From Stenotrophomonas raiganjensis (SeqCode) (GTDB taxonomy: Bacteria; Pseudomonadota; Gammaproteobacteria; Xanthomonadales; Xanthomonadaceae): 64,000 nucleotides of DNA. The number at the start of each line of letters is the position of its first letter. The stretch's first letter is position 1. This document shows positions 48,513-50,229 of the stretch, in pieces. The notes under the pieces are model-generated. The model was not told where the DNA came from and made no database searches. It was given only the letters and a program-made list of their open reading frames with translations. Both the position numbers and the translations under genes were made by a program. The stretch is from positions 31,977-95,976 of the forward strand of contig NZ_JAUTXR010000118.1 of assembly GCF_030658505.1 (NCBI RefSeq), written 5' to 3'.

Positions 48513-49586
48513 TCAAGCGGCTTCGGACACCTTCACTTCGCGACGGGCGCGCACGGCCGCGGCCAGTCGCTCCAGCACCGTCACGGTGGTGTCCCAGTCG
48601 ATGCAGCCATCGGTGATGCTCTGCCCGTAGACCAGCGGCTGGCCTTCCACCAGTTCCTGGCGACCACCGACCAGATGGCTCTCGATCATCACACCGACGA
48701 TGCGCTGTTCACCGTCTTCCAACTGAACGGCGATGTCCTCGATCACCTTCGGCTGGTTGTCCGGGTTCTTCAGGCTGTTGGCATGGCTGGCGTCGATCAT
48801 CAGGCGCGTCGGCAGCTTGGCCTTGGCCAGCGCCTGGCAGGCCTCGGCGACACTGCCTGCATCGTAGTTCGGCTGCTTGCCGCCGCGCAGGATCACATGG
48901 CAGTCCGGGTTGCCGGTGGTCGACACGATGGCGGTGCCACCCTGCTTGGTGACCGACAGGAAGTGATGCGGATTGGACGCCGCACCCACCGCGTCAGCGG
49001 CGATCTTCACGTTGCCATCGGTGCCGTTCTTGAAGCCGACCGGGCACGACAGCCCCGAGGCCAGTTCGCGGTGCACCTGGCTTTCGGTGGTGCGCGCACC
49101 AATGGCGCCCCAGGCCACCAGATCGGCGATGTATTGCGGCGAGATCACGTCGAGGAACTCGACGCCGGCCGGCAGGCCGAGCTTGTTGATGTCGCGCAGC
49201 AGGCCACGGGCGATGCGCAGGCCCTTGTCGATCCTGAAGCTGCCGTCCAGGTCCGGATCGTTGATCAGGCCCTTCCAGCCCACCGTGGTGCGCGGCTTCT
49301 CGAAGTACACGCGCATCACGATTTCAAGTTCCCCGGCCAGCGCGTCACGCAGCGGCTTCAGGCGCTGGGCGTACTCGATGGCGGCCTTCGGGTCGTGGAT
49401 CGAGCATGGGCCAACCACCACTGCCAAGCGGTCGTCACGGCCATGCAGGATCTGGTGCAGGGCCGCGCGCGAGGCGCTGACGGTGTCGGAGGCTTCATCG
49501 TCACACGGCAGCATCGCCAGCAGCTGGGCAGGCGGTGTCAGCGGTTCGATGGTGCGGATACGCAGGTCGTCGGTGTGCGGGGGCAT
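48513..49586 (-). CDS. DAHP synthase (class I, AroG/F/H type)
   Basis: The 357-residue enzyme condenses PEP and erythrose-4-phosphate, the first step of the shikimate pathway. Conserved elements are V-G-P-C-S-I-H-D, R-V-Y-F-E-K-P-R-T-T-V-G-W-K-G, G-A-I-G-A-R-T-T-E-S-Q and the metal/substrate loop I-D-A-S-H-A-N. The N-terminal ~25 residues form the regulatory arm of the E. coli-type enzymes; which amino acid inhibits it cannot be read. ATG 49586 follows GGAG. It is preceded by an aromatic-codon leader peptide and terminator. Confidence 0.95.
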   Translation of the reverse strand: MPPHTDDLRIRTIEPLTPPAQLLAMLPCDDEASDTVSASRAALHQILHGRDDRLAVVVGPCSIHDPKAAIEYAQRLKPLRDALAGELEIVMRVYFEKPRTTVGWKGLINDPDLDGSFRIDKGLRIARGLLRDINKLGLPAGVEFLDVISPQYIADLVAWGAIGARTTESQVHRELASGLSCPVGFKNGTDGNVKIAADAVGAASNPHHFLSVTKQGGTAIVSTTGNPDCHVILRGGKQPNYDAGSVAEACQALAKAKLPTRLMIDASHANSLKNPDNQPKVIEDIAVQLEDGEQRIVGVMIESHLVGGRQELVEGQPLVYGQSITDGCIDWDTTVTVLERLAAAVRARREVKVSEAA

Positions 49587-49632
49587 TGCAGGAGATCTCC
49601 GGAACGTTGGGGGTCCCCAGCGTGGCGGCATG

Positions 49633-49662
49633 AAAAAAGCCGCCAGGTTCGCTGGCGGCTTT
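49633..49662 (-). terminator. Attenuator terminator upstream of DAHP synthase
   Basis: The 8-bp stem GCCGCCAG/CTGGCGGC has a 5-nt loop and six T's on the minus strand. It lies between the leader peptide stop (49686) and the DAHP synthase ATG (49586), inside the mRNA leader. Confidence 0.85.
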
Positions 49663-49685
49663 CGGGAATGCGTCTGAAGCTTTCT

Positions 49686-49763
49686 TCAGGGTGAGCGCAG
49701 TCCTTCCTCCGCCAGTGGCTTCGGAAAGTAATACCAGTAAAAGCGGGTGGCGGCTGCGTTCAT
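49686..49763 (-). CDS. Aromatic-rich leader peptide of the DAHP synthase attenuator
   Basis: The 25-codon open frame, too short for normal gene prediction, has residues 8-13 F-Y-W-Y-Y-F: six consecutive aromatic codons covering Phe, Tyr and Trp. A TGA stop follows, 24 bases before the attenuator hairpin begins. Ribosome pausing at these codons would report scarcity of any aromatic amino acid. No Shine-Dalgarno is visible. The -10 candidate is 7 bases from the ATG, so the leader may be translated from a leaderless transcript. The peptide itself is probably without further function. Confidence 0.85.
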   Translation of the reverse strand: MNAAATRFYWYYFPKPLAEEGLRSP

Positions 49764-49770
49764 GGGTTGT

Positions 49771-49799
49771 ATTGATAGCACAGCTTTTGCGCAGTGCAA
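49771..49799 (-). promoter_or_regulatory. Candidate promoter for the aro leader
   Basis: On the minus strand TTGCAC (49794-49799) and TATCAAT (49771-49777) are separated by 16 bases. The predicted start site falls at or within 2 bases of the leader ATG. Confidence 0.5.
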
Positions 49800-49881: not shown

Positions 49882-50139
49882 TCATCTGCCATGCACTTCC
49901 ACATCCAGCAGCAGGCCTTCGTGGATGTCGGCCCAGCGCTCCAGCACGCGGCCCAGCTCCTGCCGCGCCTCATCCAGCTGCTCTGGATTGAGCAGGGAAC
50001 GGGCGGTGTAGAGATCGGACACCAGCCGCCGCAGGACGGGCTCAGGGATGGCCACCGACGGCCCTTCCACCTGCGGCAGCTGCAGTGCCGGCGTATCGCC
50101 CTGCGGGCCGTACAGCATTACCTGGAGCGTGCTCTGCAT
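49882..50139 (-). CDS. Small hypothetical protein
   Basis: The 85-residue protein starts at ATG 50139 (MQSTLQVMLYG). A beta-like N-terminal half has a Pro-rich P-Q-V-E-G-P-S-V-A-I-P-E-P segment. The helical second half is L-L-N-P-E-Q-L-D-E-A-R-Q-E-L-G-R-V-L-E-R-W. No signal peptide and no recognised family. Confidence 0.6.
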   Translation of the reverse strand: MQSTLQVMLYGPQGDTPALQLPQVEGPSVAIPEPVLRRLVSDLYTARSLLNPEQLDEARQELGRVLERWADIHEGLLLDVEVHGR

Positions 50140-50229
50140 GGTCGACTTCCGTGCGGATGGACAGGGGCAATGCACTGTTTACCGTGTTCGGGTGACAGGC
50201 GCATGTGCCATGCGCGTCCGGAGGCGCTG

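Follow-up and report, generated by a model that had tools for sequence, protein, structure and literature searches.

A conserved attenuator-like leader with codons for three aromatic amino acids upstream of a class I DAHP synthase gene in Stenotrophomonas raiganjensis

The class I DAHP synthase gene of Stenotrophomonas raiganjensis is preceded by a leader that very probably constitutes a ribosome-mediated transcription attenuator of the trp/phe/his type, setting the level of the enzyme by the supply of charged Phe-, Tyr- and Trp-tRNA. Its features are collected in Table 1, in positions of the window, by which we mean the whole 64,000-nt stretch of DNA that was analysed. A first-pass annotation had described a 25-codon frame with a run of aromatic codons, four pairing segments and six T's; every one of these positions holds on direct reading, and the observation was confirmed as real. 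The anatomy of the element, its conservation, covariation within the 3:4 stem, a possible 2:3 fold and the geometry of the codon run were all observed. The element has the features of a ribosome-mediated attenuator, namely a leader ORF with product codons, an intrinsic terminator and a mutually exclusive 2:3 pairing.

Table 1. Features of the leader and of the downstream gene, in window positions and in the order of transcription
Feature	Position	Strand	Remarks
-35-like TTGCAC	49794..49799	minus	16 nt upstream of the -10; read from sequence
Extended -10 TGC-TATCAAT	49771..49780	minus	Hexamer TATCAA at 49777-49772, with TGn extension; 8 bases to leader ATG
Leader ORF	49686..49763	minus	25 codons and TGA, reads MNAAATRFYWYYFPKPLAEEGLRSP; ATG at 49763, TGA at 49688-49686; without a Shine-Dalgarno-like motif
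Segment 1, CCGCCA	49748..49753	minus	Neither sequence nor register conserved
Candidate sensor codons, Phe-Tyr-Trp-Tyr-Tyr-Phe	49725..49742	minus	TTT TAC TGG TAT TAC TTT
Segment 2, CTGGCGG	49709..49715	minus	Within leader ORF; core GGCGG
Spacer hairpin, CTGAAG-AAAG-CTTCAG	49674..49689	minus	Between segments 2 and 3; overlaps leader stop codon
Segment 3, GCCGCCAG	49652..49659	minus	3' arm of antiterminator, 5' arm of terminator
Segment 4, CTGGCGGC	49639..49646	minus	3' arm of terminator
Terminator T run, six T	49633..49638	minus	Read from sequence
GGAG, likely ribosome binding site of DAHP synthase gene	49597..49600	minus	32 nt past T run
Class I DAHP synthase gene (AroF/G/H type)	48513..49586	minus	357 aa; start ATG at 49586

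Spacer hairpins resembling that of the window were seen by eye in many family sequences. An in-frame upstream start for the DAHP synthase, ATG 49631, was rejected, as many relatives have no ATG there (by eye). Translational control through a hidden ribosome binding site was likewise rejected; direct hiding of the GGAG in the terminator stem is unlikely because 32 nt separate it from the T run, which places it outside the terminator. Immediately upstream of the attenuator promoter lies a small ORF (49882-50175, minus strand), with an 86-residue stretch that has no NCBIfam match.

The leader stood out clearly against shuffled sequence. The aromatic pattern TWYTWYTGGTWYTWYTWY, with its central Trp, matched once in the window and in none of 100 shuffles, and the same was found for the terminator hairpin pattern (one match; 0 in each of 100 shuffles). 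Across the whole 4.7-Mb genome this six-codon pattern gave a single match, and a backwards-pattern control gave none. The 140-nt leader RNA had a folding z-score of -4.65, with 0/200 shuffles as low. A pattern of five Phe or Tyr in a row revealed no further leader in this genome: it occurred at three places (backwards control, four), two of them inside frames of 208 and 207 aa and the third without a leader. A generic consensus scan, which requires T as the sixth base of the -10 and at least five T's after the stem, listed neither a promoter nor a terminator at the attenuator. The terminator stem here can itself absorb part of the T run.

For relatives, the element was called where at least four of seven codons were aromatic and a terminator lay in range. 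On shuffled upstream regions this rule made 3 calls in 1768, the aromatic ORF alone appearing in 91/1768, and a stricter rule of five aromatic codons in seven made 0/1200 and 1/1768. Since 3/1768 shuffled regions are called, a single isolated case could be an accident, with an ordinary intergenic terminator lying behind a chance aromatic frame. The element is, however, conserved in relatives across Xanthomonadaceae, Burkholderiales and rhizobia, with synonymous codon changes; together with the shuffles, these comparative data refute a chance origin, the probability of which we consider negligible.

Leader and terminator were called upstream of DAHP synthase in 60/60 Stenotrophomonas homologues read, in 56/57 homologues from other genera of the family (39/40 and 17/17), in 52 of 80 named DAHP synthase homologues, in 23/24 close phylum homologues taken from among the matches listed, and in 12/40 distant homologues, likewise chosen from among the matches listed. 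The five-in-seven rule called 60/60 Stenotrophomonas, 38/40 and 17/17 other family, 48/80 named and 21/24 close phylum homologues. The 28/80 named homologues called without the element included enterobacteria and vibrios. One of them, L047, has it by eye; this sequence and L207 were counted as misses, as a leader and hairpin are visible by eye in both but the T run is broken. The Stenotrophomonas sample comprised the 60 upstream regions read out of 90 homologues, the remainder being mostly 97-99% identical, and the other-genus sample comprised 57 of 60 homologues (G300, G322 and G168 were left out). A few places were seen twice (L004/L165, L005/L162 and L200/L215), and the named and phylum sets overlap the family set by a few. 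The first-pass annotation had pointed to homologous upstream regions as the place where its reading might fail; these regions retain the aromatic run and the terminator, as well as segments 2 and 3. Two sequences, L141 and L142, carry an extra stretch of about 70 nt between terminator and gene, which contains a GGCGCACA...TGTGCGCC hairpin and has a copy of TTTTTTCATG on either side. This stretch looks like a small repeat-element insertion.

To describe the codons read by the leader, identical sequences were collapsed and counts were made on non-redundant sets. Phe and Tyr codons occurred in 162/162 leaders and Trp codons in 141/162; among the Xanthomonadaceae, 93 of 94 leaders held all three. 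In one leader (L214) the script picked the wrong start codon. Within the family, 37 distinct nucleotide versions of the aromatic run were found in 115 rows, which had been selected with a peptide pattern in which the last Phe is fixed. TGG was kept in 35/37 of these versions, and the Tyr that follows it in all 37, with a synonymous change in 16 of them. The last Phe, fixed as an amino acid by the pattern, was written TTT in 37/37. Other columns were freer: the second Tyr was non-aromatic in 6/37 versions, and the first column in 12/37. Over 91 loci, Phe was written TTT in 242 leader codons and TTC in 47, whereas the downstream DAHP synthase genes had 68 TTT and 466 TTC. This preference for TTT fits an unstructured or slowly read codon run. 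The comparison among Xanthomonadaceae that had been proposed as a check for conserved aromatic codons gave aromatic codons kept with synonymous changes.

These counts bear on which amino acids are sensed. The same attenuator may mainly read Phe, or Phe and Tyr, with the single Trp codon contributing little. Trp is missing from 21/162 non-redundant leaders, while Phe and Tyr are missing from none, and the Corynebacterium aroR leader (Phe-Tyr-Phe) is described, in passages of a review, as answering to Phe limitation and not to Tyr (PMC11802643). The retention of TGG in 35/37 run versions of the family, and of all three aromatic amino acids in 93/94 Xanthomonadaceae leaders, argues against this narrower sensor, which we consider possible but doubtful.

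The cores GGCGG, CCGCC and GGCGG of segments 2, 3 and 4 were present in 188/204 matches. The terminator stem 3:4 covaried at two positions, which paired in 85/85 and 82/85 sequences compared with at most 71 and 75 in 300 shuffles. A pair flanking 2:3 covaried weakly (53/85, against up to 52 in shuffles). Rows without the three cores were excluded from these pair counts, and the cores are invariant, so that 2:3 can show little covariation. The GGCGG core of segment 2 was mostly in one codon frame; it took the other two frames in six leaders and was absent from eight.

Folding predictions agreed with a 2:3 antiterminator. When segment 1 was masked and the RNA ended before segment 4, the window RNA was predicted to fold as 2:3, and so were 158/158 non-redundant sequences with cores. 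Shuffling segment 2 is a weak control, as some pairing with segment 3, scored by a looser criterion, was still predicted in 125/158. For the full naked RNA, 3:4 was predicted in the window and in 155/158 sequences, with segment 2 paired upstream in 91/158. In naked RNA before segment 4, segment 2 paired with segment 3 in 70/158 and with the region before the run in 44/158. At equilibrium, the masked full-length RNA still preferred 3:4 in 140/158 sequences, so the switch must be kinetic. For masked RNA that ends before segment 4, taken with the conserved run, segments 2 and 3 and terminator, the 2:3 fold predicted under these conditions supports the trp/phe-type reading.

Segment 1 fared less well than the other segments. 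CCGCCA does lie where the first-pass annotation placed it, but it is not conserved, being found before the run in only 20/60 Stenotrophomonas leaders; it also occurs in 14/17 Burkholderiaceae leaders of the MSAK type. The nearest named relative, an uncultured Stenotrophomonas with 98% DAHP synthase identity, has CCCCCA in its place, and in the minimum-energy fold of the window leader segment 2 pairs with the adjacent CCGCU instead of CCGCCA. Complementarity between 1 and 2 exceeded that of shuffled leaders in three groups, none of 100 shuffles matching it in any group; related rows inflate this result, and the register drifts.

The spacing of the codon run and segment 2 was assessed against the size of the ribosome footprint. 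In four lineages measured, the core of segment 2 starts 10-17 nt past the last aromatic codon, and it lies at 10-14 nt in all 119 family matches having the core there. The core would thus start roughly where a ribosome stalled on that codon has its leading edge. In the window, the core ends 20 nt upstream of the stop codon, and a ribosome at the stop codon probably would not cover segment 2. In this the leader would differ from the textbook trp attenuator, where the ribosome at the stop covers segment 2.

A leaderless leader had been suggested as a possibility, and the family comparison points the same way. In 113/116 family matches a TGNTAWCW motif stood with its hexamer 7-9 nt from the start codon, compared with 25/5800 mononucleotide shuffles of the 26 bases, and a Shine-Dalgarno-like motif in the 18 nt before the leader start was found in 0/116. 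Because the start codon follows the extended -10 by 7-9 nt and has no Shine-Dalgarno-like motif, the leader is probably leaderless, and this spacing would put the transcript start at 49767-49763, at or within about 4 bases of the leader AUG. Leaderlessness is not universal, since all 17 MSAK-type leaders of Burkholderiaceae have their best -10-like hexamer at least 12 nt away. GTG leader starts occurred in several members of one genus, and in L214.

From this anatomy we infer where the transcript starts, that the ribosome stalls and transcription terminates, and how each amino acid is answered. Transcription would begin at or within about 4 bases of the leader AUG, and a ribosome would load without a Shine-Dalgarno sequence and then trail the polymerase. 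Should charged Phe-, Tyr- or Trp-tRNA be scarce, the ribosome would stall in the aromatic codon run, keeping the region before the run from segment 2 and leaving segment 2 free. Free segment 2 could then pair with segment 3 before segment 4 exists; no terminator would form and the gene would be transcribed. With all three plentiful, the ribosome would pass segment 2 to the stop codon, 3:4 would form and transcription would end about 46 bases before the gene.

Stalling might instead come from TnaC-like arrest of the nascent chain by a free amino acid rather than from codon starvation. The peptide is indeed conserved past the run too (PKPLAEEGLRSP and kin). This tail is partly due to the RNA core GGCGG, which in six leaders is in another codon frame with different residues; in other orders the leaders have the aromatic run and the RNA segments in common, whereas their peptides are little alike; and none of five leader peptides tested had an NCBIfam or Pfam match. 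Arrest by the peptide is therefore highly improbable as the basis of an attenuator that appears to read codons.

Presence of the leader was clustered on the tree of the enzyme. On a tree of 90 DAHP synthases, from which 19 near-copies had been removed beforehand, leader presence needs 10 changes, where shuffled labels need 24 on average; after 25 more rows had been removed, it needs 8 on a careful tree of the other 65. The DAHP synthases of Xanthomonadales and rhizobia, with two from another class (L217 and L220), all with leaders, formed one branch with support 100/96, the genes from other classes lying beside or within the Xanthomonadales group. This grouping of Xanthomonadales, rhizobia and the other class differs from the accepted tree of the organisms. 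Because the DAHP synthase branch departs from that tree, the data suggest that gene and leader may have moved together between classes. A further-reaching proposal would treat the DAHP synthase gene and the three-amino-acid attenuator as a mobile unit that spread between proteobacterial classes, its leaderless leader using a single codon run to integrate the supply of Phe, Tyr and Trp such that a shortage of any one opens the common pathway, and its released RNA perhaps also acting in trans; we hold this as speculative and, as a whole, rather unlikely. That the element works mainly in trans, through its terminated RNA of some 130 nt or through the peptide, with attenuation secondary, in the manner of Sinorhizobium rnTrpL/peTrpL, is very unlikely. 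The S. meliloti trpL attenuator RNA is leaderless and has trans activity according to passages of two papers (PMC7298713, PMC10117765), but the clustering of leader presence on the DAHP synthase tree argues against such a role here.

The gene downstream of the leader encodes a first-step enzyme of the shikimate pathway. The product of 48513-49586 scored 535.5 bits against TIGR00034 (cut-off 173.2), and the best-scoring solved chains for the 357-aa enzyme are DAHP synthases, one Phe-regulated among them. The first-pass annotation was correct in naming the gene, but not in so far as it implied the only enzyme of the first step, as the genome also holds a class II DAHP synthase gene at another place (G000:C150:2587-3891, L289). 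Class II enzymes were found in 245/247 family genomes, this one included, and class I in 73/247, which rules out a sole DAHP synthase sensing everything. Since a class II enzyme is also encoded, the gene behind the leader belongs to a pair of isoenzyme genes and may be the adjustable member. In this genome and six others, the 600 bases preceding the class II domain contained no leader with terminator; one of the six other upstream regions had an aromatic frame without a terminator. A TrpR-family protein is encoded at G000:C176:247202-247456, above the Pfam cut-off, and a search of this genome with the TyrR model found nothing. In a genome without a TyrR-model match, one isoenzyme gene thus appears to be governed by codons for all three end products. 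For E. coli, passages of PMC5343134 describe three isoenzymes at the entry to the aromatic pathway, with genes under the control of the repressors TyrR and TrpR.

The passages of PMC2965389, PMC1262725, PMC7298713, PMC2659441, PMC11802643, PMC5343134, PMC4046766, PMC12125101 and PMC10117765 do not describe this proteobacterial family of DAHP synthase leaders. At the window locus, Rfam gave Phe_leader RF01859 at 21.3 bits (gathering threshold 55) and sroD at 21.4 (threshold 50), and at 16 representative loci no family reached threshold, Trp_leader RF00513 included; a known Rfam element was therefore rejected. The comparison gives an annotation for a peptide and an RNA unnamed by the libraries scanned, and points to a simple putative sensor of amino-acid supply with several inputs, which is kept in much of the Pseudomonadota sampled. 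Among the matches listed in the open-licence literature, no title or opening of an abstract named a DAHP synthase leader peptide in Xanthomonas, Stenotrophomonas, Burkholderia or rhizobia; an earlier prediction is possible, for example by Vitreschak et al. 2004, reportedly a survey of attenuators in proteobacteria.

In E. coli, trpL and pheL each read one amino acid and govern a terminal branch. The leader described here resembles them in its product-codon peptide, alternative pairing segments and 3:4 terminator. Enterobacterial ilvGMEDA and thrABC leaders each combine, in one leader, codons for several amino acids of a branched pathway; those are branched-chain or Thr/Ile codons, whereas here they are aromatic. 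Neshat et al. 2014 are said to have described aroR, the leader of the DAHP synthase gene aroF in Corynebacterium glutamicum. This is the closest precedent, an aromatic leader peptide (Phe-Tyr-Phe) upstream of a DAHP synthase gene (passages of PMC11802643 and PMC4046766), at which ribosome stalling raises transcription according to part of a review (PMC11802643). Compared by description alone, aroR differs in being actinobacterial, in its Phe-Tyr-Phe run and in answering to Phe and not to Tyr.

Among gammaproteobacteria, the aroF and aroH genes of Shewanella are listed with predicted cis-regulatory RNAs in passages of PMC2659441, aroF as 'Attenuator sensing tyr-tRNA' with a 1980 E. coli reference and aroH with the table note 'Possible transcription termination'. 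Because aroF is annotated there with an attenuator, the novelty of attenuation at a proteobacterial DAHP synthase is lowered. The likeness, again by description, is that of a predicted regulatory RNA before gammaproteobacterial DAHP synthase genes; those passages give no leader peptide, and the enterobacterial and vibrio homologues here were without a called element. The S. meliloti trpL leader ORF begins at the first AUG of its transcript (passages of PMC7298713 and PMC10117765), as is probably so here, but it carries Trp codons and lies upstream of trpE(G). E. coli trpL and pheL serve one amino acid each, at a terminal branch (passages of PMC11802643), whereas the present leader carries codons for three, before DAHP synthase. 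The mechanism, of the trp/phe type, is already known, and the element would form a new family within it.
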